Assembly: GCA_903844895.1 (NCBI GenBank)
Contig: CAIMVM010000361.1
Coordinates: 1 to 37,061, forward strand
Direction: 5' to 3'
From: an uncultured Pseudomonadota bacterium
Lineage (GTDB): Bacteria; Bdellovibrionota_B; Oligoflexia; Oligoflexales; CAIMVM01
Length of the DNA stretch: 37,061 nt
Made by a program: the position numbers and the translations under genes. Every line of letters begins with the position of its first letter. Within the stretch, counting starts at the first letter, position 1. This document shows, in pieces, positions 3,733 to 17,605 of this stretch. A model generated the notes under the pieces. The model saw only the letters and a program-made list of their open reading frames with translations, was not told the DNA's origin and ran no database searches.

Positions 3733-4725
3733 ATGAAGCCCCTATTCGTAAGTTTAGCCGCCATTCCTTTTTTAATAAGCCAAAATGTGGAAGCAGCCGA
3801 AAAAAATCAATCTATGGTTTTTATGGCTGTCGATAAAACAAAGCTGATTGCTGAGCTCAGAACATGGACAGAGGATTTTGCAAAGTCGGAAGTTCTGTCT
3901 AAGTTTCCCATCGCTATTGGCAAGGAGAAAGGTGATAAGCTCAAAGCTGGTGACAATCGCACTCCAGAAGGAATATATTTCACTCAAACGCACATTTCAC
4001 CTTCACAAATTCCAGTCGAGAAATATGGACCTAAAGCGGTTCCTTTAGATTTTCCAAATCCTTTTGACTTGTTCCAGAATAAAACTGGCTATGGGATTTG
4101 GCTACATGGTGCCGGAAATGACAATCGCATGGCGGAAGCAACCGTAACGGAAGGGTGTGTCGCCTTTTATAATCGAGATATTAAGAAATTAAGTAGCTGG
4201 CTCGTTCCCTATCAAGCTGCTGTTGTAATTTCTAGGGATCTAGAAAGCATCAACAGGACCGATGATATGCAAAGCGTGAAAATGCGCACGGAAGCTTGGT
4301 TGGCGGCGTGGGCATCAAAAGATCTTAATAGCTATTTGGACTTCTATGATACTGATTTCAATCTAGAAGGACGCAATAGAGCTCAATTTAAGGAGTATAA
4401 GCAAAATCTTTTTGCAAAGTATTCCACTATGGAAGTGAAAGGCTATGGAATTAGAGTGCTCGCACATGAAAAATATGCCGTTGCTGCTATGAATCAAGAT
4501 TTTACGGGAAATGGATCCTACGTCTCCAATGGCAGAAAAGTTCTCTACTGGATTAAAGGAAAAGACGGCCAGTGGAAAATTTTGAGAGAAACATTTGGTG
4601 AGCATAGGTTCGAACCTTTAGCTTGGACTCAACAGGACTTAAAATTATTGATATCCAGTCAAGCCGGAGATCGCAGCTTGGGGGAGCAGAGAGCCCCACC
4701 CAGGGGCACCACTAAGAAACTTTAA
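3733..4725 (+). CDS. Secreted L,D-transpeptidase (YkuD) with NTF2-like C-terminal domain
   Basis: A secreted peptidoglycan-modifying enzyme. Residues 1-22 form a signal peptide ending near VEAAEK. The YkuD catalytic domain covers about residues 27-170, with WLHGAG (His125) and VTEGCVAFYNRDI (nucleophile Cys142), the hallmark of L,D-transpeptidases that form 3-3 crosslinks or attach proteins to the sacculus. Residues about 180-300 look like an NTF2/SnoaL-type domain (EAWLAAWASKDLNSYLDFY, ending WKILRETF), an architecture known for Cds6-type L,D-transpeptidases. The last 25 residues are Arg/Pro-rich. ATG 3733 follows AAGGA. A strong terminator follows at 4759, so the gene may be monocistronic. 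Confidence 0.85.
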   Translation: MKPLFVSLAAIPFLISQNVEAAEKNQSMVFMAVDKTKLIAELRTWTEDFAKSEVLSKFPIAIGKEKGDKLKAGDNRTPEGIYFTQTHISPSQIPVEKYGPKAVPLDFPNPFDLFQNKTGYGIWLHGAGNDNRMAEATVTEGCVAFYNRDIKKLSSWLVPYQAAVVISRDLESINRTDDMQSVKMRTEAWLAAWASKDLNSYLDFYDTDFNLEGRNRAQFKEYKQNLFAKYSTMEVKGYGIRVLAHEKYAVAAMNQDFTGNGSYVSNGRKVLYWIKGKDGQWKILRETFGEHRFEPLAWTQQDLKLLISSQAGDRSLGEQRAPPRGTTKKL

Positions 4726-4801: not shown

Positions 4802-5767
4802 ATGAAGTTCTTAGTAATTGCTTGTTTGGTACTTTCCAAGGTCTCTTTTGGCCAGGCTCTTTATAAGTTGAATGGAAAAGTAGTTCAGAAGTCCGACCTT
4901 CCTTCTGGAATCGGCCAAAATTTATTCGAGGCCGAAGTTAAGCACCGCGATATGATGCAGGCGTTAGTTGATGAGGCGATTTTTGCCAGCCATTTAGCAA
5001 GTGAAGCTAAGAAAAAAAACAAGTCCCCTAAAGATCTTGCTGCAGAAATAGTCAAAGGTAAAAACCCTTCTGAAAGTGATCTCAAGAGTTTCTATGAGAA
5101 AAATAAGGCCCGCATTGGGGCGCCTTACGAGCAAGTTAAAGGGGAGCTGACTAATTACTTGAAAAGTGAAAGCGAACAAAAGGCTCGAAGTGAATTAGTT
5201 GCTAGCCTAAAAAAGAAGGGCGGTTTTGAATTTCTAGTTCCAGAGATTGAGGCTCCTAATCTACAAATTGACACATCTGGAGCACCCACAAAGGGGCAAA
5301 AAGGCTCAAAAGTAAAAATCGTAGAGTTTGCTGATTACCAGTGCCCCCATTGCAAACATGCCCATGAAGTATTGAAAAAGTTTATGGGTAAGATGTCAGG
5401 GAAAATTGAATTTGTATTTATGGATTTTCCCATCAATAGGTCCGGGATTAGCCGAAGGGTTGCCGAAGGTGCGTACTGCGCCAATCAAATGGGCAAGTAC
5501 TGGGAATTTCATGATATTGCCTTTGAAAAGCAAGATAAGTTAACCAATGAATATCCACTTGAGATTGCCAAAACATTAAAACTGGATGAAGCTAAGTTTA
5601 AAGCCTGTATGGATGGGGCAGAGTCTAAAGCTTATGTCCAAAAGTCTTTGAATGAGGGAGAGCGCATAGGGATTTCTGGTACACCTTCGGTTTACTTAAA
5701 TGGAAAGCGCGTCATGGATTGGACGGAAGAAGCTTTGTCAAAGCAAGTCGAGAAGGCTTTAAAATAA
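4802..5767 (+). CDS. Periplasmic DsbA-family thiol oxidoreductase with SurA-like N-terminal region
   Basis: An exported thioredoxin-fold protein. Residues 1-18 form a signal peptide. Residues about 19-140 are helical and charged, with a SurA/parvulin-like N-terminal feel (MMQALVDEAIFASHL, SESDLKSFYEKNKARIG). The DsbA domain covers about 165-320, with active site CPHC at 181-184 in FADYQCPHC and the cis-proline loop GTPSVYLNG (Pro295). DsbA-type enzymes introduce disulphides into exported proteins. The next gene encodes a periplasmic domain with two CX3C pairs, a plausible substrate (inference). The start ATG 4802 has GGAG six bases before it. The gene begins directly after a terminator, so its own promoter must overlap that hairpin or precede it. 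Confidence 0.85.
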   Translation: MKFLVIACLVLSKVSFGQALYKLNGKVVQKSDLPSGIGQNLFEAEVKHRDMMQALVDEAIFASHLASEAKKKNKSPKDLAAEIVKGKNPSESDLKSFYEKNKARIGAPYEQVKGELTNYLKSESEQKARSELVASLKKKGGFEFLVPEIEAPNLQIDTSGAPTKGQKGSKVKIVEFADYQCPHCKHAHEVLKKFMGKMSGKIEFVFMDFPINRSGISRRVAEGAYCANQMGKYWEFHDIAFEKQDKLTNEYPLEIAKTLKLDEAKFKACMDGAESKAYVQKSLNEGERIGISGTPSVYLNGKRVMDWTEEALSKQVEKALK

Positions 5768-5850: not shown

Positions 5851-5856
5851 ATGGCT

Positions 5857-8067
5857 ATGAGGCGCATATTTTTTACATTTCTAGGTTTATTAGCCTCGCT
5901 TCATGCCATTGCTGGTGCGGAGACAGATAAAGGCGCCTATGAAGCTGAGCTTTTGCGAAAAGCAGAACGGCAAATCCGGGGATCCTTAGAAAAATACTGC
6001 CGAGATGCATGTGAATTCTTACAAGTTGAGGCGGATATTGAAGACATTCTTCAAAATCTTGATGACCTAGGATTTGAAGGTATGGAGGGAATTGAGGCGC
6101 CTTCATTGAGTTTTAAAACCAATAAAATTTGGACACGAGTTCAAATCGATATGAGAGTAGACACCAAGAACAGAGACCGACTCACTAGGATTCTTCAGGG
6201 TCAGTTAGCTAGTCTAGCCCCTTTTTCGGAGGTCATCTGGGTTGACTTAGCGGTTCCTGAGATTGGTAAAGAAAATACGGTTAAAGCTCGCGTCATAAAG
6301 GGTTTAGAAGAACGACTTTCCAGCATTGCGACAGATTTGTTTTCAAAGTATTGCCCAGAAACCTGTATTTTAAGTAACGTTAAAGTGACCGGAGAAACTT
6401 TAACAGAAGAGCAAACTTTAAACTTATCAAGTACAGAATTTTTCTTCGATCGCGCTGAAAATTCTTGGCTTAAAGTCAACGATGCTGTTGTCAGCATGAC
6501 CATGTCGGAGAGCATGGATGAAAATGAAAAAAAACAAATAGCCGCACTCTTACAAGATCAAGTCTCATTTCTATCAAATGCTAACGTAGAAGCTCGTTCC
6601 GTGAAGTTTCCTGAAACCTTTGCCTCTAGAAGGCTTAGGCTTGAGGCAGAGTCACGTGATCCCTACGGCTTGGATCGTCTCAAAAAAACCATGACCTTAT
6701 TTAAGGAGCTTTCCGAAGACCGCGAGCAGATAACTCTACCAGCATCAGTCCCCTCTGAGAATCCTAATCTCTCTAAGTATATTGTGGCGGCTGTAGTTTT
6801 GTTAGTAGTAGCTGGCTTAATAATCTTGGTAGTAGCGCGATATGGTGCTGTGCAGCGTGAGGCTATGATGATGCGCCAATCAGCAGAAAACCAGAGACTG
6901 CAATATCTAGGTGAAGCTTCAAAACATGAGGAGCAAGATCAAAAAGAAGAGGAAAGATCAAAACGAGTTGAAATTGATGAAAATCTTGTTTGGAAGCTTA
7001 AAGCTGATGACCTTAAAGATGACATCATTGAAATTATCACAAGGAATCCTAAAGTTGCGAGAGAAAGCTTTGGTAGAATTATAGCTGAAGAGGGTGTTGA
7101 AGAAACTTCGAAGTATATACATGTTTTGGGAAATAGTGTTGTTTTTGACCTACTTAAGGACCCCGCCCATAGACGTAGTTTGAGGGATCTTTCGGAATAT
7201 TATCAGAAGTCAAGTTTCGACTTTTCTCCAGAGGAAGAAGCGAGGCTTTTAGCTGGTCTCAAAACCAAGGTTTTGGCTAGTGAACTCAGAGTTTTAACTA
7301 GGAGCGATTTAGAGGCCTTTGAGTTTCTTTCTCAGATGGACTCGCCTCAAATCTTTACTCTCATCAATGATGAAAAATCAAAGATCCAGTCTGTTGTTCT
7401 AGCACAGCTTCCTTCATCTAAGAGAAGACAGGTGTTTGAACTCTTTAAGGGAGAGTCGCGAATTTCTCTGATGAATGAGCTTTGTGATAATGGGGCAATT
7501 ACTAAAGACTATTTGGTGAATGTTGCGAGAACTTTGGCCAGGAAAGTAGCTGGGCGTGGCGGTCTTGACCCTGAGACGGCGAGGGCTTCAGATATCATTC
7601 AAGAGTTGTTAGAGCGTGTAGGCATCGAGGAACAAAGAGCTTTAGTGAGGAATCTTGAAGTTTCGAACCCCGATGGTGCGAGAAATATCAAGATGCGACT
7701 GGTGACATCCTATACTCTAGCCTACATAAAGTCGGGGGCTCTTTTAGAAATTATCTTAGATCTAGAGCACGAAGACTTAGTCGTATTCCTTGCGGGGGCA
7801 CCGGAAGACATTGCTAAGTTGGTTATCGAGCAGGCTCCCAGTGAACTAGCAGATGCACTTCTTGAGGAACTTGAAAGTGTTGCTAAAGTTGATGATAACA
7901 ATTTCAGGCTAGTAGAGCTTAAGGTTCTTTCAAAGCTGAGGAATATGGTCAGCTCTGGCAGAGTTAACCTCTTGGAGATCAATGAAGCGATGTTCTCAGA
8001 AAGACGAAACCTTTCTTCAGACCCAACAAAAAGAAATCAGCAATCCGTGGAAAAGGGTGCTGCATAA
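5857..8067 (+). CDS. FliF-like/FliG-like single-chain membrane protein
   Basis: A 736-residue protein in five parts. (1) Residues 1-20 are a signal peptide or N-terminal anchor. (2) Residues about 30-265 are a periplasmic region of two similar halves, each with a KYCxxxC motif (Cys48/52 and Cys166/170) and ending in VPE or FPE, resembling the segment before the second FliF transmembrane helix. (3) A transmembrane helix lies at about 307-329. (4) A charged linker leads to IIEIITRNPKVARESFGRII (388-410), like the FliF C-terminal tail that binds FliG. (5) Residues about 413-720 are FliG-like N, M and C domains, with MDSPQ at the EHPQ position and a colinear C domain. Normal FliF and FliG are separate proteins of about 560 and 335 residues. 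No other flagellar structural gene is present, so this looks like a specialised paralogue of unknown function. ATG 5857 fits the ribosome binding site better than ATG 5851. Confidence 0.75.
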   Translation: MRRIFFTFLGLLASLHAIAGAETDKGAYEAELLRKAERQIRGSLEKYCRDACEFLQVEADIEDILQNLDDLGFEGMEGIEAPSLSFKTNKIWTRVQIDMRVDTKNRDRLTRILQGQLASLAPFSEVIWVDLAVPEIGKENTVKARVIKGLEERLSSIATDLFSKYCPETCILSNVKVTGETLTEEQTLNLSSTEFFFDRAENSWLKVNDAVVSMTMSESMDENEKKQIAALLQDQVSFLSNANVEARSVKFPETFASRRLRLEAESRDPYGLDRLKKTMTLFKELSEDREQITLPASVPSENPNLSKYIVAAVVLLVVAGLIILVVARYGAVQREAMMMRQSAENQRLQYLGEASKHEEQDQKEEERSKRVEIDENLVWKLKADDLKDDIIEIITRNPKVARESFGRIIAEEGVEETSKYIHVLGNSVVFDLLKDPAHRRSLRDLSEYYQKSSFDFSPEEEARLLAGLKTKVLASELRVLTRSDLEAFEFLSQMDSPQIFTLINDEKSKIQSVVLAQLPSSKRRQVFELFKGESRISLMNELCDNGAITKDYLVNVARTLARKVAGRGGLDPETARASDIIQELLERVGIEEQRALVRNLEVSNPDGARNIKMRLVTSYTLAYIKSGALLEIILDLEHEDLVVFLAGAPEDIAKLVIEQAPSELADALLEELESVAKVDDNNFRLVELKVLSKLRNMVSSGRVNLLEINEAMFSERRNLSSDPTKRNQQSVEKGAA

Positions 8068-10377: not shown

Positions 10378-10412
10378 AAGAGTTGTCTATCAGTAAATCA
10401 ATTTGGCGGTTT

Positions 10413-11486
10413 ATGCTCTTAACGAATAGAAACATGATTGCGATTGATTTGGGCAGTTCCAGCATTAAGATGCTTGAGCTATCGGGATCTCGTGAAAAAA
10501 AGATCGTAGCGCTCGGCTTAAAGACCATTCCTGAAGGTCTCATAGTCGGCGGCGGTATTGAAAACCCAACTGAAGTAGGGCAAATCATTTCGGCGTTAGC
10601 GAAGCAGCTTGGCATTCGTTTGAAGGGTAGGCGAGCGGCCATTTCGATTGGCGGAACGAGCGTTATTATTAGAAGACTTCTGTTAGATGACGCCTCGGAT
10701 ATTGTCAACGTGGACGATCTCGTAAAGAGTGATTTTGAACAGCAGTTTCAGCTTGGTATTGAGGATCTTTGCACCAATTTTTACCTGGATTCTGAGAATC
10801 AATACCCGGACGGAAAAATGCCTGTAGTGACGGCGGCTACCAAACAAGTAACAGTACAAAAGCATATAGCTGCTATTAAATCTAGCGGTCTAAAAATTGG
10901 TCTTATAGATTGTTCTGCATTGGCCCTAGTAAATGTTCTTGAGTACACCTATGGCAAGGTGCCAGGTCTTTCTGTAATCATAAGCGTAGGCGCACAATCT
11001 ACTCAGCTCGTCTTCACGCTTTTTGGCCAATACTACTACAATCGGGACATTCCTTATGGTGGCAATCACTACACGGAAGAGATCGCTAGACTTTTGAAAA
11101 TAGACAAAGCCAAAGCAGATAGCTTAAAAATCAGCGCGAATTCAAGTCAAGGTGAGACTCCCGCTGAACTTATTAAGATTTTTTCGGAAGTCAACGCTCA
11201 AGTCATTTTCGAAATAGCTGGAACTATAGATTTCTTTTTTTCAGCAAATGAACTTCCCGCTGAAATCACCAAAGTTCAGTCGTTTTTTATAACGGGAGGT
11301 GGCAGTCATGTTCTTGGACTAGATGCTGCCATTGCTACAAAGTTCGGTGTTTCAGTAAGCATTCTAGCCCCCTTTCATAAGGTGGATTCGGGGAAGTTTG
11401 AGATGGACTATGTTTTGTCGCAGGGACATTTCTATGCAAACGCAGTGGGTTTGGCTCTTCGCAAATTTGAAGATGATTTGGAGTGA
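10413..11486 (+). CDS. pilM: Type IV pilus assembly protein PilM
   Basis: An actin-like cytoplasmic ATPase of the type IV pilus alignment complex. The phosphate-1 loop IAIDLGSSSIKMLEL near the N-terminus is the PilM signature, and ISVGAQSTQLVF and FFITGGGSHVLGL mark the second nucleotide-binding half. PilM binds the cytoplasmic tail of PilN and links the motor to the inner-membrane PilN/PilO ring. ATG 10413 is chosen because GGCGG precedes it and little family sequence is lost; TTG 10383 and ATG 10434 are alternatives. The next gene starts six bases after the stop, and the order M-N-O-P-Q is canonical. Confidence 0.92.
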   Translation: MLLTNRNMIAIDLGSSSIKMLELSGSREKKIVALGLKTIPEGLIVGGGIENPTEVGQIISALAKQLGIRLKGRRAAISIGGTSVIIRRLLLDDASDIVNVDDLVKSDFEQQFQLGIEDLCTNFYLDSENQYPDGKMPVVTAATKQVTVQKHIAAIKSSGLKIGLIDCSALALVNVLEYTYGKVPGLSVIISVGAQSTQLVFTLFGQYYYNRDIPYGGNHYTEEIARLLKIDKAKADSLKISANSSQGETPAELIKIFSEVNAQVIFEIAGTIDFFFSANELPAEITKVQSFFITGGGSHVLGLDAAIATKFGVSVSILAPFHKVDSGKFEMDYVLSQGHFYANAVGLALRKFEDDLE

Positions 11487-11492
11487 TGATAG

Positions 11493-12146
11493 ATGATTAA
11501 AATACAGCTAGCTCCGTATGATGAATTGGAGGACAAAAACTGGTGGGTTCCTGACGCCATGGCTTTGGTACTTGCCTTGTTTCTTTCGAATTTTTTAGTT
11601 AGTAGTTATGTGGATCGTCTTGAAAATGAAATCTTAGAAATCCAGGCTCAAACCGAGGAGTTTAATAGAAGCATTGCTGCTATTCAACCGGAGATAGCTG
11701 TTTTTAAAGGTATTGAAAATAAGATATCCGAATTAAAAGCTGTAATTTCGGCACTTTCCTCTATTACAGTATCTAGGCTGACAAAGTATCGTCCGGTAGT
11801 TGTTCTTGAGCAAATTCAAGCATTGAAGCCTGATGGCCTTTGGTTTACTTCTATAAAAGAAGATACTGCAGCACGCAAAATTACAATCTCTGGTTTTGCC
11901 TTTGATTCCATTCTTATCGGACAATTCATGTCAGAACTTGGAGCGACCAAACTCCAAAGATTTGATCCGGCAGATATACGCTCTCAATTGAATTTTTCAC
12001 AAGTAAAATTGAAGATATTTGAAAATAGTAAATCAGGAAGTGTCTTAGATGAAGTCCAGCCAAATGGATTTTCTAAGTTCGATATATATATGAATTTTGA
12101 GGAACGTACTTCTGAAAGCATAGCGGATTCTACGGTTTCTCATTGA
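11493..12146 (+). CDS. pilN: Type IV pilus assembly protein PilN
   Basis: An inner-membrane protein of 217 residues with a short cytoplasmic N-terminus (MIKIQLAPYDE, which matches the PilM-binding INLLPY-type motif), one transmembrane helix at about residues 17-37, a coiled coil (about 40-90) and a ferredoxin-like periplasmic domain. PilN pairs with PilO. It has a C-terminal tail somewhat longer than usual (about 30 residues, Ser/Glu-rich). GGAG lies about ten bases before the ATG. Confidence 0.88.
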   Translation: MIKIQLAPYDELEDKNWWVPDAMALVLALFLSNFLVSSYVDRLENEILEIQAQTEEFNRSIAAIQPEIAVFKGIENKISELKAVISALSSITVSRLTKYRPVVVLEQIQALKPDGLWFTSIKEDTAARKITISGFAFDSILIGQFMSELGATKLQRFDPADIRSQLNFSQVKLKIFENSKSGSVLDEVQPNGFSKFDIYMNFEERTSESIADSTVSH

Positions 12147-12156
12147 AGGAAAAGTC

Positions 12157-12969
12157 ATGCAAGTTGAAGAGCTAGTCATAAATTACAAAAGAAGAAAGCC
12201 CTCGCAAAGGTTGGCTGCATTGATTGGTATCGGCCTTCTTTTTCCGGCGCTCTGGGGCTGGATTAATACGGACATTGGAGGTATTGAAAGTCGCAAGTCC
12301 CAGGCTGCTTTAGAGAAAACGAATTCTGAAGCTGAGCTGCAAAAATTTATCGAACAAAAAAAGGACGCGCCGCGCTTAGAAGAACGACTGAAGTTTACAG
12401 AAAATGAAATGGCTGATGCCAGAAAACGCCTGCCTAGTGAATACTATATTGATTTAATGATTCAAAAAATTGGCGTGTTGGCAAATAGGGCTAAGGTTTC
12501 GTTAAAGTTATTTAGTCCAGGTGAAGAGGCTGTTGTTCAGGGCCAAGTGCCCTATGTGGAGATGCCCATCAAGGTTGAAGTGACGGGCGGATATAATGAA
12601 ATCGCTCAGTTTTACGATGCGATTGTTCATTTTGATTCCATGATTCACATTCGAAACATGGAATTCCATACCTCCGCCAATGAAGAGGGTAGGGTGAGCA
12701 AAAGTTCCCGTTCCAGTGAGCAAAATCTCGATGTCAGCCAGAGGTTTGAAAGTGAAGTCAGAAATCATCAAATTGTGGCTTCGATGTTATTGGTTCTCTT
12801 TAGGAGTATGAAGCCAGACGAGTCATTGTCTGGACCCGCAAATGGTGGCGCATTCGTTCCTCCACCAATTGCTGATCCTTCGAAGTCGGGAAATAAAAAA
12901 TCTGCAGCTTATACGCCACCTAATACGCAGCCGCCCCCAGGTCTTCCCAACAAAGATGGAGGCAATTGA
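12157..12969 (+). CDS. pilO: Type IV pilus assembly protein PilO
   Basis: It has one transmembrane helix (about residues 19-38), a periplasmic coiled coil (about 42-95) and a PilO-type domain ending near residue 215, where YVEMPIKVEVTGGYNEIAQF is the conserved core. It heterodimerises with PilN and contacts PilP. A Pro-rich tail of about 50 residues (PPPIADP, YTPPNTQPPPGLP) follows the fold, which is longer than in typical PilO and resembles the Pro-rich tail of the downstream PilP. It starts ten bases after pilN and ends three bases before pilP. Confidence 0.88.
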   Translation: MQVEELVINYKRRKPSQRLAALIGIGLLFPALWGWINTDIGGIESRKSQAALEKTNSEAELQKFIEQKKDAPRLEERLKFTENEMADARKRLPSEYYIDLMIQKIGVLANRAKVSLKLFSPGEEAVVQGQVPYVEMPIKVEVTGGYNEIAQFYDAIVHFDSMIHIRNMEFHTSANEEGRVSKSSRSSEQNLDVSQRFESEVRNHQIVASMLLVLFRSMKPDESLSGPANGGAFVPPPIADPSKSGNKKSAAYTPPNTQPPPGLPNKDGGN

Positions 12970-12972
12970 ACG

Positions 12973-14025
12973 ATGAAAATTAAGACATTCGGGTTAGCGC
13001 TAACTTTTTTAACACTGATTTATTCTCGCGCCAGAGGAGATGGTCCCCCTGACCAAACAGATGTTGTAGCCAATTCTGCAGAAAATGGCTCAGATGAGTT
13101 ACCATCTGAAGCTCTACAGAATCCAGTTTCTGCACCTGAATCAGATATGACGTCGCAGACTTCATCAGATTTAAACAAGGAAACTGCCAGCCAAGCTGCA
13201 ACGAAACCCCCAGCGATTTTAAGTGCAAATGATAAAGCAGAGGAACAAGCTTGGGATAGCTCGATTGGTTATGAAGATGCAAGTCGAATTGCCTTGGACG
13301 TTACAAACGGGATTAGGATTAAAGATATCGTTCAACCTTCTGCCGAATATCACTTTGCCTCTTTTGGTAGGCCAGACCCTTTTTTGCCTCAAATCCGACT
13401 CAATCGAAAGGAATCAAAGAATCTGAAAGAGTCTGACCCTGGATATGAGGAAATTCAGGTGACTTCCATTCTCCAAAAATATTCTATTGCTGATCTTGTT
13501 GTAGTAGGAATTTGGAGCCCGAAGAATGCGGCTAAAAAAGCTTTGGTAAGCACTCCAGTTGGTGAGGGGGTCGTAGTGCAAATGGGCGACTCCATTGGAA
13601 TGAAAGCTGGTAAGGTCATCGCTATTTCAGATGATTCTGTGTCGGTGCGAGAGTTTGAAATTTCCTTTGATGGGACACGTCAATTTCAGGACTTAAAGCT
13701 TTGGATTTCTGGTAAGAAGCCCAAAGAGAATGAATTCATTAGATTGGGAGTTCAGGAACAAAGAAAAGAGGCATCTGATGGGGGCGAGCCCCAGCGTCCG
13801 GTAACGCCTATGCCTTCAGCTACCAGTTTCATGCCTCCCCCTAATTTGTTACCACTTCCGCCAGCGGGAGCCATGAACCCCCAGAATATGCCTTCGACTT
13901 ATACGCGGCGAATATCTGGCGAAAGTGAAGAAATGCCTCAAACTAGCAATATTATGGGGAAGCCTAATATATTGAGTGAGAAATCATTATTGCCGCCTCC
14001 AAGCATGCCTCAACCTGGACTTTAG
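12973..14025 (+). CDS. pilP: Type IV pilus assembly protein PilP
   Basis: An exported protein with a signal peptide at about residues 1-23. The conserved PilP domain covers about residues 130-260: GRPDPFLP, the strand IADLVVVGIW, then KALVSTPVGEGVVVQMGD and GKVIAISDDSVSVRE. PilP bridges the PilN/PilO inner-membrane ring to the PilQ secretin. Two features differ from the family: there is no lipobox cysteine, and the domain is flanked by an Asn/Ser/Glu-rich linker (about 24-85) and a Pro/Met-rich C-terminal tail of about 90 residues, making it roughly twice the usual length. Confidence 0.85.
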   Translation: MKIKTFGLALTFLTLIYSRARGDGPPDQTDVVANSAENGSDELPSEALQNPVSAPESDMTSQTSSDLNKETASQAATKPPAILSANDKAEEQAWDSSIGYEDASRIALDVTNGIRIKDIVQPSAEYHFASFGRPDPFLPQIRLNRKESKNLKESDPGYEEIQVTSILQKYSIADLVVVGIWSPKNAAKKALVSTPVGEGVVVQMGDSIGMKAGKVIAISDDSVSVREFEISFDGTRQFQDLKLWISGKKPKENEFIRLGVQEQRKEASDGGEPQRPVTPMPSATSFMPPPNLLPLPPAGAMNPQNMPSTYTRRISGESEEMPQTSNIMGKPNILSEKSLLPPPSMPQPGL

Positions 14026-14050
14026 TTAGCCTTTTTTTAAGGATACTGTT

Positions 14051-17000
14051 ATGAAACATGTTTTAAAATCTTTTGGAATAAGTCTCATGTGCCTAGCCCT
14101 GGGGTGCTCCTCGGCGCAGCCTCAGGAAGGTCAGGAAGACATCTCTAATAGTCAGGCGAACCAAAGCAACGCTGCTTTAGATGATGAACCTTCCGATTTG
14201 GATTCTGAGTCCAATGTTAATGGGGTGGCCTCGAACATTGCTACCGAAAATCAGTTTTCAAGCAATCCAACTAAGAACATTTCGTCTGGAAACAAGAATA
14301 CATCCAAGAATTTTAATTCTTTTGGGGGAGTTCCTAATCAAGTCACAAATTCCGCATCGAATTCAGCGCCTCCGGCTAACATACCTGTGACTAACAATTC
14401 GGCGGCATCAAATACTGCAGGTGGACTTAATGCAGCAATCAACAGTTCGATTTCCAACAATCTAACGACGTCTGCCAACTCTGCAACTCCAGTTGCCAGC
14501 TCGCAAGTGGCAACAAGTCCTATGCCCTTAGAGCAGGGCGCAGCCCCTAAAATGGAACCCGCTTTAGTAGATGCAGGAGCAAGATTGACTTGGGTAGGTT
14601 TTGATTATCGACCATTAGATGCACAAGTTAGAGTTGAGATTGTTGCTGAGGGCGCTCCCGAATACGACGTGCTACAGGAAGTGAACAAAAAGCAGCAACC
14701 TGAGCTTGTTGTGAGACTCTACAAGACCTCGTTAAAGAAGAAAGTCAGGCGCGACATCGATTGTTCCGAGTTTAAAAGCCCCGTTTCTTTCATAAGGATG
14801 AGAGAGGATTTAGAGAAATCATACACTGACGTAGTGATGACTCTTCGTGACAAAGTAGTGCCACGTCTATTTGCCGACAAGGGCAATATACTAATCACAT
14901 ATTCCATCCCCCAACGCTATTTTGGGAATTCTGCGATAGGAATGTCTGCAGAGTCGCGTGGGACTTTCTTATCTGGATTTAGAGTACAGCCCATTATTCA
15001 ATCGGGTTCCAAGCAGCCCTTAAAAGCATCTAAAATTCCAGATCCCACTAAAGGAGCATTTAGTCAAGCACCAGCTCTTGGTGGAGAGCCTCTTCAAAGT
15101 GAGCCCGCCGCTCTGTCTGAACCCACCGCTCCGGTTGAGCCTTCCGCAACATCTCAGGTTGCGCCAGAATCTGCACAGCCTTTGGATGAGTCGACACCAC
15201 CGCAAAATGCCAACAGTCAGGTACCGGCAAATGCTGCTGTTTCGAATGCCGGAGCTTCTGGGCTAAATGGGACGAACTTTGGAGGCATGAACGGTGGAAA
15301 TGTTAATTTAGAGAAGCAACAAGCTCAGGCGGCTAGTGAAAACCTTGCGCCTGAAGGCCCTGAAAACGAGAATTTGGAAGAGCCCGAGAATGAAGACTTG
15401 AATAATAGTGAAGAGAATAATTTAGATGAAGAAGAACAGCTCAATGACACAGGAAATGACTTTTCCTTTCAAAAAAGTTTAGAGCTTCCGAGTCTTTTGA
15501 TTGAGTACCAAATTGCTGCTGTGGGGAACGATGGGTATGCGCTAGACGAAGATTTAGATGCTGTTTCTCCTAAGAATTCCACTAATAGTGCGATAGGTGC
15601 ACAGACCCCATTTCCGCAAAATTCTGCGGTGGGCTATAGCGGAGCGGCAAACAGTATGACCCCAAACAGTGCGGTCGGCAATGGTAACAATTCAAAATTG
15701 AGTTCAAACGGCAATGCGGCAACTGGCATGTCTCTTAATGGTTCGAATCAAAACAAGTCTTTAGGAGCGGTTACAAATGCAGCTCCTCTAACACCTAATT
15801 CGAGCGTAAACTCTGCAAGTTTAGCGCCTAATACAAGCGTCAATTCTGCAAGTCTCGCACCTATAAATACGGCCGGCGCAGATTCTGAGTTCGTTGATCT
15901 TACAGGACCAGATGCAATGGGCTCTGAAAGTGTTGCGGGAGCTGAGATGTCAAATGGTGGCCAGGTTACTCGCCCTGTAAAATTGGAGTTTACTGGAGCC
16001 AGACTTTCTGATGTCTTAAAAGTTTTGTCCGAAGAAAATGGAACAAACTTCATTTTTACTGATGAAGCCGTAAAAGACTTAAAAGTGAATGTAAGTTTAA
16101 AAGATGTGAGCTGGACAGATGCATTAGGGGCCATTCTTGACACTTACGGGTTAGGCTACTCTCAGCTTCCAGGAAATGTTGTAAGAATCGATAAGTTTGC
16201 CAATCTCAAAGGTCAAAAAATTGATATCATGGCTGCCAAAGTGGAAGCGCTCAAATTACAAAGAACCCGGCAAATGGTCTACAAATTGTCATTCGCAAAA
16301 TCGGCAGACATTGAAAAGTCAATTGCCCGTCTTATCGATACGGGACTTGACCCCAGAATGAAAATCACTGGGGACTCAAGAACCAATACAGTGGTCATAG
16401 AGGCAGTGCCTGAGCTTCTCTCCAAATTTAAGTCCATTATTGAAAAGCTCGACACTCCAACCCCTCAGGTCAGAATTGCTGTTAAGGTTGTGGAAGCCTC
16501 GGAATCCTTTAACTATGATTTCGGCGTGAAGTGGGGGACAAATTTACTTTTGGACTCTGCTCGCGGTCTTGGGTTTGGTTCATTGCCCTTTCCAAAGACT
16601 GCAACTTCAAGCGTAGCCATCGATGTTCCCTCTACCAAGGCTCCGACCGTTCAAATTGGCGCACGCCTTGGCAGTCTAAACAATGCCGTTAACTTGGATG
16701 CTGTTATTGCTTTTTCTGAGGCTAAACAGAATGCTAAGATTCTACAAAACACAAGCGTACTGGTCCTTGATCAGCAGCCCGCTTTAATCGTGCAGGGCCT
16801 TACTGACTACTTTGACGCCACAGATAATTCCACAAGTACTAGTTCAGAGCGAAAGTCGTCGCTTGTAAGTATACAATACAATTTGACTTTAAATGTAACA
16901 CCCTCAGTTTCAGCTGATGGTTCTGTGGGGATGAATGTAAAGTTAAATGCCGATACACCGGTCATAGGTAAAGCTAAGACCGCGGTTGCTGGTATGGCGA

Positions 17001-17605
17001 ATAAGAAGCTCGAAACTTTTATGCTTAAAAAAAGCGGGGAAACTGCAGTAATTGGTGGTGTCTATACGACTCGCAAAGAAGAGGTCGTCAAAGCTGTTCC
17101 TTTCTTTTCAAAAATCCCCATCATTGGATGGCTCTTTAAGAGCACTGTTCAAGAGATGCAGAAGACAGAACTCATTATTTTTGTGACACCCACCATTATA
17201 AATGGAAAGTCAGATGATCGTACCCGTGGAGCAAGCTATGTGGACATCCCGCAAACTAACTCGACCTATGCTGCGCAAGGGGCCCTAGAACCAAGCACCG
17301 GCCTCAATTCCAGCGGATCTGAGGGAGCAGGTGCCCAATTTGACACTGGGGCGATCAATTCTGCGCAGGCCAATGCCACTGTAAATTCATCTCAGAGTCA
17401 AGGATCTAACCAGCAAGGTATAGGAAACCAAATGAATAATTCCAGTCAAAACAATGCCACAAATAATGCGACCGATAATGCGACTGATAATCAGACCGAT
17501 AATGCGACCGATAATGCGACTGATAATCAGACCGATAATCAGACCGATAATGCGACTGACAATTCGACCAACAATATGGGCGGCAACGGGGAGGAACAGC
17601 TTTGA
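14051..17605 (+). CDS. pilQ: Type IV pilus secretin PilQ, extended
   Basis: An outer-membrane secretin through which the pilus exits. A signal peptide ends at LALGC, a lipobox placing the lipid on Cys19. Domains: an Asn/Ser/Ala-rich stretch (about 25-170), an AMIN-type beta domain (about 177-295), a long low-complexity acidic and Asn-rich linker (about 330-635), an STN domain (about 640-710, from VKLEFTGARLSDVL), a short secretin N domain (about 742-805) and the secretin barrel (about 808-1050, containing PFFSKIPIIGWLF and ELIIFVTPTII). After the barrel comes a disordered tail of about 135 residues ending in (A/Q)TDN repeats. At 1184 residues it is clearly longer than typical PilQ (about 700-900); all of the excess is low complexity. 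AAGGA precedes the ATG. Confidence 0.92.
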   Translation: MKHVLKSFGISLMCLALGCSSAQPQEGQEDISNSQANQSNAALDDEPSDLDSESNVNGVASNIATENQFSSNPTKNISSGNKNTSKNFNSFGGVPNQVTNSASNSAPPANIPVTNNSAASNTAGGLNAAINSSISNNLTTSANSATPVASSQVATSPMPLEQGAAPKMEPALVDAGARLTWVGFDYRPLDAQVRVEIVAEGAPEYDVLQEVNKKQQPELVVRLYKTSLKKKVRRDIDCSEFKSPVSFIRMREDLEKSYTDVVMTLRDKVVPRLFADKGNILITYSIPQRYFGNSAIGMSAESRGTFLSGFRVQPIIQSGSKQPLKASKIPDPTKGAFSQAPALGGEPLQSEPAALSEPTAPVEPSATSQVAPESAQPLDESTPPQNANSQVPANAAVSNAGASGLNGTNFGGMNGGNVNLEKQQAQAASENLAPEGPENENLEEPENEDLNNSEENNLDEEEQLNDTGNDFSFQKSLELPSLLIEYQIAAVGNDGYALDEDLDAVSPKNSTNSAIGAQTPFPQNSAVGYSGAANSMTPNSAVGNGNNSKLSSNGNAATGMSLNGSNQNKSLGAVTNAAPLTPNSSVNSASLAPNTSVNSASLAPINTAGADSEFVDLTGPDAMGSESVAGAEMSNGGQVTRPVKLEFTGARLSDVLKVLSEENGTNFIFTDEAVKDLKVNVSLKDVSWTDALGAILDTYGLGYSQLPGNVVRIDKFANLKGQKIDIMAAKVEALKLQRTRQMVYKLSFAKSADIEKSIARLIDTGLDPRMKITGDSRTNTVVIEAVPELLSKFKSIIEKLDTPTPQVRIAVKVVEASESFNYDFGVKWGTNLLLDSARGLGFGSLPFPKTATSSVAIDVPSTKAPTVQIGARLGSLNNAVNLDAVIAFSEAKQNAKILQNTSVLVLDQQPALIVQGLTDYFDATDNSTSTSSERKSSLVSIQYNLTLNVTPSVSADGSVGMNVKLNADTPVIGKAKTAVAGMANKKLETFMLKKSGETAVIGGVYTTRKEEVVKAVPFFSKIPIIGWLFKSTVQEMQKTELIIFVTPTIINGKSDDRTRGASYVDIPQTNSTYAAQGALEPSTGLNSSGSEGAGAQFDTGAINSAQANATVNSSQSQGSNQQGIGNQMNNSSQNNATNNATDNATDNQTDNATDNATDNQTDNQTDNATDNSTNNMGGNGEEQL
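15790..15870 (+). repeat. Internal repeat in the PilQ linker
   Basis: Two and a half imperfect copies of an approximately 33-bp unit encode the peptide SVNSASLAPNT. The unit lies in the disordered linker between the AMIN and STN domains of PilQ and probably acts as a flexible spacer that can change length by slippage. Confidence 0.7.
17468..17575 (+). repeat. 12-bp tandem repeat encoding (A/Q)TDN at the PilQ C-terminus
   Basis: Eight in-frame 12-bp units read GCG or CAG, then ACC or ACT, then GAT AAT (GAC AAT in the last), followed by a degenerate STNN unit. The unit order A, A, Q, A, A, Q, Q, A suggests duplication of multi-unit blocks. It is a strong candidate for copy-number variation between strains without loss of frame. 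Confidence 0.9.

Follow-up and report, generated by a model that had tools for sequence, protein, structure and literature searches.

A membrane-anchored FliF-like/FliG-like fusion protein of the Oligoflexia as a candidate rotor of a non-flagellar MotAB-type motor

The window analysed here (the whole 37,061-nucleotide contig CAIMVM010000361.1) encodes a 738-residue protein, which we call FUS, in which a FliF-like and a FliG-like part are joined in one chain. We consider that FUS is probably the membrane-anchored rotor subunit of a dedicated, non-flagellar, ion-driven motor of the MotAB type, a reading in which rotation and output are what we infer. The observations behind it are the domain content of FUS, its co-inheritance with one MotAB pair, an operon containing all three genes in the Silvanigrellales, matched changes at the stator–rotor contact, and sister pairs in two genomes without detectable flagellar rotor genes. 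The initial annotation proposed a ring- or rotor-like envelope machine that may serve some purpose other than turning a flagellum, and in this respect it is probably right. It missed the dedicated stator, because this lies outside the window, and also the wider rotor–stator family, which lies outside it too.

The first point to note is that the reading frame starts slightly upstream of the position given originally, 5857, which is a second in-frame ATG. The resulting layout is given in Table 1. The description of a single chain with an N-terminal signal or anchor, a periplasmic region and one transmembrane (TM) helix agrees with the hydropathy profile, and this arrangement is conserved in 28 genomes. 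Since homologues are found in so many genomes, a chance origin of FUS is excluded. Alignment of the orthologues shows four invariant periplasmic cysteines, and a helical linker joins the TM helix to the FliG-like cytoplasmic part. The C-terminal alanine is retained in nearly all orthologues (L052–L075) although the linker before the tail varies.

Table 1. Features of the FUS gene, its product and its neighbours, in window coordinates.
Feature	Coordinates	Strand	Basis
FUS gene, membrane-anchored FliF-like/FliG-like fusion	5851..8067	+	ORF, 738 aa; homologues in 28/58 Oligoflexia genomes
N-terminal signal peptide/anchor, aa 1–24	5851..5922	+	Hydrophobic segment 6–24 (hydropathy); predicted helix 2–21
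Periplasmic RBM-like domain 1, aa 26–133	5926..6249	+	AF2 H-E-E-H-E topology; Foldseek to FliF; invariant C50, C54
Periplasmic RBM-like domain 2, aa 140–251	6268..6603	+	AF2 H-E-E-H-E topology; Foldseek to FliF; invariant C168, C172
Membrane-proximal stretch DPxGLxxLRxxLxIFRxLAxTKEII, aa 270–294	6658..6732	+	Near-invariant, 24 orthologues
Single TM helix, aa 311–329	6781..6837	+	19-mer hydropathy 3.42
Putative FliF-tail-like segment ...NPKVARESFGRII..., aa 387–411	7009..7083	+	Position fits; score not above chance alternatives
FliG_N-like region, aa 412–490	7084..7320	+	Best FliG_N profile placement aa 412–414 (weak); structural match to full-length FliG; without Pfam FliG_N match
FliG_M, aa 500–568	7348..7554	+	Pfam 5e-8, above gathering cut-off; EHPQ: only E fully conserved
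FliG_C-like, aa 601–707	7651..7971	+	Pfam 2.3e-9, above gathering cut-off; K264>A, R281>E, D288>E, D289>E (E. coli numbering)
C-terminal ...(V/A)A tail, ssrA-degron-like	8056..8064	+	Conserved; last residue A in 23/24 orthologues
Secreted DsbA-like thiol oxidoreductase, directly upstream of FUS	4802..5767	+	Pfam Thioredoxin_4 1.4e-29; near FUS in 10 named-genome loci
L,D-transpeptidase with Cds6-type domain, conserved FUS neighbour	3733..4725	+	Pfam; conserved order
pilMNOPQ	10383..17605	+	Conserved chromosomal neighbour in some Oligoflexales

The cytoplasmic part matches Pfam FliG_M and FliG_C in all 24 orthologues scanned, and a FUS profile aligned by hhalign with FliG from the same class gives a probability of 98.6% over M and C. 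Its identity as FliG M and C is thus significant at the level of sequence, and the AF2 model also matches full-length FliG (3hjl) in Foldseek (6e-10, 320 alignment columns on a 321-residue target). The original claim of FliG N, M and C domains in order therefore stands for M and C. For N, an ungapped profile scan suggests a FliG_N-like start at about residue 412, and Pfam gives no FliG_N match in FUS. The score against the FliG equivalog model TIGR00207 is 49.6 bits, well below the cut-off of 226.7. The FliM-binding EHPQ motif has lost its histidine in 24 of 24 orthologues and is reduced to its glutamate, the GG hinge is lost and, at the torque positions, R281 has become E or D throughout (24/24), K264 is mostly lost and residues 288/289 are mostly acidic. 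FUS is not the flagellar FliG. The alternative that it might be the organism's only one was checked, and the source genome has both a separate canonical FliG (contig C133), with EHPQ and the torque residues, and a canonical FliF (contig C298) in a cluster of the flgBC-fliF-fliH-fliI type. This fliG lies outside the fliF-fliH-fliI cluster and is solitary, near tgt and a flagellin-like gene (L106:7887-14955, L107:8843-9841). A second FliM dedicated to FUS was also sought, and each genome had at most one FliM, the two matches in G057 looking like one split gene.

The periplasmic part presents a different picture. Modelled alone (mean pLDDT 86), it is predicted to form two tandem alpha-beta-beta-alpha-beta domains, which is the topology of the ring-building motif (RBM), a generic fold; the full-length model has a low pTM of 0.29. 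The three best PDB matches of this part in Foldseek are FliF MS-ring chains (2e-7 to 2e-6; 8t8p at 2e-7), and the first match other than FliF is about 100-fold weaker (2e-4). Neither YscJ_FliF nor YscJ_FliF_C (Pfam) was matched by FUS or its orthologues, hhalign against FliF was not significant for the periplasmic part (probability 1.2%) or for the cytoplasmic part, and the periplasmic profile had no match among PDB sequences. Since there is no FliF signal by sequence, 'FliF-like' is a statement on the predicted fold alone, and the FliF likeness first proposed holds in that sense. It had also been suggested that the segment NPKVARESF is a FliF tail which reproduces the FliF–FliG interface within the chain. 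This segment does lie just before the likely FliG_N start, but in a motif scan over all offsets, with shuffles, it scored no higher than chance alternatives, the best tail match being at residue 459, so that it is at most a candidate tail and the reproduced interface is not supported.

The candidate partner is most clearly seen in the Silvanigrellales, where all five loci have an operon of the order TPR protein–MotA–MotB–FUS, with FUS last and the genes near-contiguous or overlapping. The best NCBIfam model for the operon MotA is PomA (3e-48), and the MotB has MotB_plug and OmpA domains. In the Oligoflexales regions fetched, the FUS-linked MotAB is apart from FUS and adjoins two genes that we take, from their sequence and not from a family search, to encode ClpS and ClpA. 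This position, directly upstream of the clpS-clpA-like genes, together with the degron-like tail of FUS, points to turnover under Clp control. The surroundings of the FUS-linked MotAB at 11 Oligoflexales loci (L149:8824-9723 and ten related ones) include a gene for a secreted protein, cluster d4, whose repeats are conserved and rich in Cys and Arg.

Orthologues of the FUS-type MotA stand clearly apart by score, with 200+ bits as against at most 121 for other MotAs, and are present in 29 genomes. Presence or absence of FUS and of this MotA agrees in 55 of 58 genomes (27 with both, 1 with FUS only, 2 with MotA only, 28 with neither; Fisher 8e-13). The exceptions are G003, which has FUS and a MotA copy cut at a contig end, and G020 and G042, which have the MotA without FUS. 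Counted by genus, the corresponding figures are 18/1/0/11 (2e-7), and of the eight independent contrasts that FUS shows on a Tgt tree, six are matched by MotA with none opposed (p 0.03). Because the MotAB lies apart from FUS in the Oligoflexales regions fetched, linkage does not explain the co-inheritance there.

The residues through which stator and rotor touch are altered in a corresponding manner. In E. coli and Salmonella, MotA R90 pairs with FliG D289, and E98 with R281 (PMC7564593; also PMC12505986). The FUS-linked MotAs keep R90 in 23 of 23 cases and replace E98 in 23 of 23; E98 is still present in three MotAs of flagellar type from the class. On the rotor side, the partner of R90 stays mostly acidic and the partner of E98 is the reversed R281. 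Judged from these alignments, retention of the R90/acidic contact and loss of the E98/R281 contact on both sides is the pattern expected of true partners. The channel prolines (P173 in 23/23, P222 in 22/23) and the MotB Asp motif (23/23) are also kept. Torque generation by the standard mechanism is nevertheless not assured for FUS, because R281 is charge-reversed and K264 mostly lost.

FUS homologues, full-length or split between contigs, occur in 28 of the 58 Oligoflexia genomes, most of which are MAGs, so that absence of a gene may reflect incompleteness. A profile scan of contigs, confined to this phylum, gave 24 FUS loci, all within the Oligoflexia as far as checked; a scan of contigs with the single FUS sequence gave no match, and the plasmid collection contained no fused homologue. 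The gene order in many Oligoflexales is MinD-like, DnaJ/HTH_25, pseudouridine synthase, L,D-transpeptidase, DsbA and FUS, to which some loci add a cNMP-binding protein, CysK and pilMNOPQ. The four periplasmic cysteines of FUS could plausibly have the DsbA-like protein as their partner. G026 and G022, which have lost FUS and its MotAB, encode a signal-TM protein of 579–581 residues with a distant FliG-like tail (L114:3789-5531, L115:3054-4790), in an operon with large secreted or lipoprotein-like proteins and without MotAB.

FUS is one of a wider class. A FliG_C search returned at least 24 further long ORFs (570–790 aa) with FliG_C that are not FUS orthologues. Those examined have a TM helix before the FliG-like part, mostly an N-terminal hydrophobic segment, and usually a MotB beside the MotA. 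Among the matches listed, 19 of 24 such TM-FliG_C fusions have a MotA within 4.5 kb, as against 0 of 49 canonical FliGs (2.7e-13), a control for which the MotAs came from the FUS-MotA ortholog-search list; when MotAs are taken from one uniform list only, the figure is 15 of the 24 among the matches listed (9e-10). The source genome itself has a second operon of this kind, with a TPR protein, MotA, MotB and a 709-residue TM-FliG_C protein (contig C28, L235:2154-6767). Four modules (G009:C95, G022:C92, G034:C338 and G033:C195) keep R90, E98, R281 and acidic residues at 288/289. Two genomes, G001 (96% complete) and G021 (93%), in which FliF, FliG_M and FliM were not detected at the thresholds used, carry a FliG_C-TM protein together with MotA and MotB; most of the canonical contact residues are missing from these two modules. 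At further loci (L244, L245, L239, L241 and L263) a MotAB pair is followed by a protein of about 600 residues, with HAMP and SpoIIE phosphatase domains where scanned, and several of them also encode a secreted protein of about 400 residues. The MotAB–HAMP/SpoIIE loci may encode a motor of this kind in a regulated form.

In the motor that we favour, the two RBM-like periplasmic domains and the TM helix of FUS would form a ring in the inner membrane. The FliG-like part would form a cytoplasmic ring below it, a track pushed at its FliG_C-like edge by its own MotA5B2 stator, whose MotB carries a plug and a peptidoglycan-binding OmpA domain. The TM helix would then transmit the torque to the periplasmic ring, and from there it would reach the envelope without a rod, a hook or a filament. 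The most likely output would be movement over surfaces or work on the envelope.

Other roles for FUS have to be weighed against this motor. It might be a flagellar accessory, an extra inner-membrane ring round the polar motor by which further MotAB stators are recruited or geared. Flagellar genes are present in all 28 genomes with FUS, and none of eight aflagellate genomes has it (Fisher 0.005, not tree-corrected), which would fit an accessory, although on the tree this correlation comes down to two supported contrasts and is underpowered. We nonetheless regard such a role as unlikely. Many flagellates, including members of the same genus as FUS carriers, lack FUS; it was never within flagellar loci in the regions examined, and its position outside any flagellar cluster, as originally described, was confirmed in that the ORFs scanned in the window included no flagellar gene. 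Moreover, the FliM-binding motif is degenerate, and the sister rotor–MotAB modules of G001 and G021 occur where no flagellar rotor genes were detected. Alternatively, MotAB could drive conformational changes in FUS that act on peptidoglycan or the outer membrane without rotation, in the manner of TolQR-TolA or ExbBD-TonB. The reversal of R281 would suit this, as would the failure to find an axial component and the presence of TPR proteins, an L,D-transpeptidase and DsbA as neighbours. Yet FUS keeps RBM-like domains and the organisation of FliG M and C, its stator carries a plug and an OmpA domain and belongs to the PomA/MotB type of flagella, not to the TolQ/ExbB type, and several sister families have the complete set of torque contacts. 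We regard a non-rotary transducer as about as unlikely as a flagellar accessory.

Two further possibilities carry very little weight. The proximity of pilMNOPQ, with a gene order that is conserved in some Oligoflexales, had led to the idea of an envelope ring associated with type IV pili. The distributions differ, with PilM in 58 of 58 genomes and FUS in 28 of 58, and in other lineages FUS is far from the pil genes; a pilus function was dropped on these grounds, and the neighbourhood is probably incidental. It is just as hard to credit that FUS is a decaying or spare FliG paralogue without a motor role. Loss of EHPQ, the GG hinge and K264 might be read in this way, but the protein is conserved over its full length, with invariant cysteines and motifs across 28 genomes, and is co-inherited with one MotAB.

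Compared with known systems, FUS shares with flagellar FliF and FliG the predicted RBM-type periplasmic domains, a TM helix and FliG M and C, and the linked stator resembles flagellar MotAB/PomAB in its PomA-like MotA, with R90 and the channel prolines, and in its MotB with plug and OmpA domains. It differs from the flagellar pair in being one chain, with only two RBM-like domains and no FliF sequence signature, in its degenerate EHPQ and the E98/R281 contact lost on both sides, in having no axial or export genes nearby, and in coexisting with the canonical pair. AglRQS (myxobacterial gliding), GldLM (T9SS gliding), TolQR, ExbBD and Zorya ZorAB are likewise ion-driven inner-membrane motors of the 5:2 type that do non-flagellar work, but the FUS-linked MotAB, unlike these, has the flagellar-type plug and OmpA domain. 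To our knowledge, none of them has been described with a FliG-type rotor. The Chlamydiaceae have a natural FliF–FliG fusion, described as being about 330 aa long (Bergeron 2016, PMC4768692), in which a signal at the N-terminus is likewise combined with two RBM-like domains, one TM helix and a cytoplasmic FliG part. Of FliG it contains the M region only, and no stator is linked to it, whereas FUS is co-inherited with MotAB and includes an N-like and an M region of FliG together with the torque C region. Engineered FliF–FliG fusions of Salmonella and Vibrio, whose rings are reported to assemble (PMC6079021, PMC11481574), similarly place MS-ring-like and rotor parts in one chain; they differ in being artificial, in containing full FliF and in being part of a flagellum.

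It is quite possible, though far from certain, that the Oligoflexia have several families of rotary motor that stand by themselves, independent of the flagellum. In each of them a MotAB stator would work with a FliG-like rotor ring anchored in the membrane, and the motors would power surface motility or envelope work. In the open-licence literature we found no MotAB working with a FliG-type rotor outside the flagellum, and an earlier description elsewhere is possible. Such free-standing motors, if they exist, would form a new class of rotary machine driven by ions, and they would offer a test, set up by nature, of whether a rotor and its stator can exist without the flagellum. The gliding motor of Bdellovibrio, a related predator, is described as a major open question in a 2026 review (PMC13104615), and genes of the FUS/MotAB type are concrete candidates to seek for it. 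If the FUS–MotAB pairs do rotate, the flagellar torque unit would be usable as a separate module, which would bear on the evolution of the flagellum and on the idea that the FliF–FliG joint is a split single domain.
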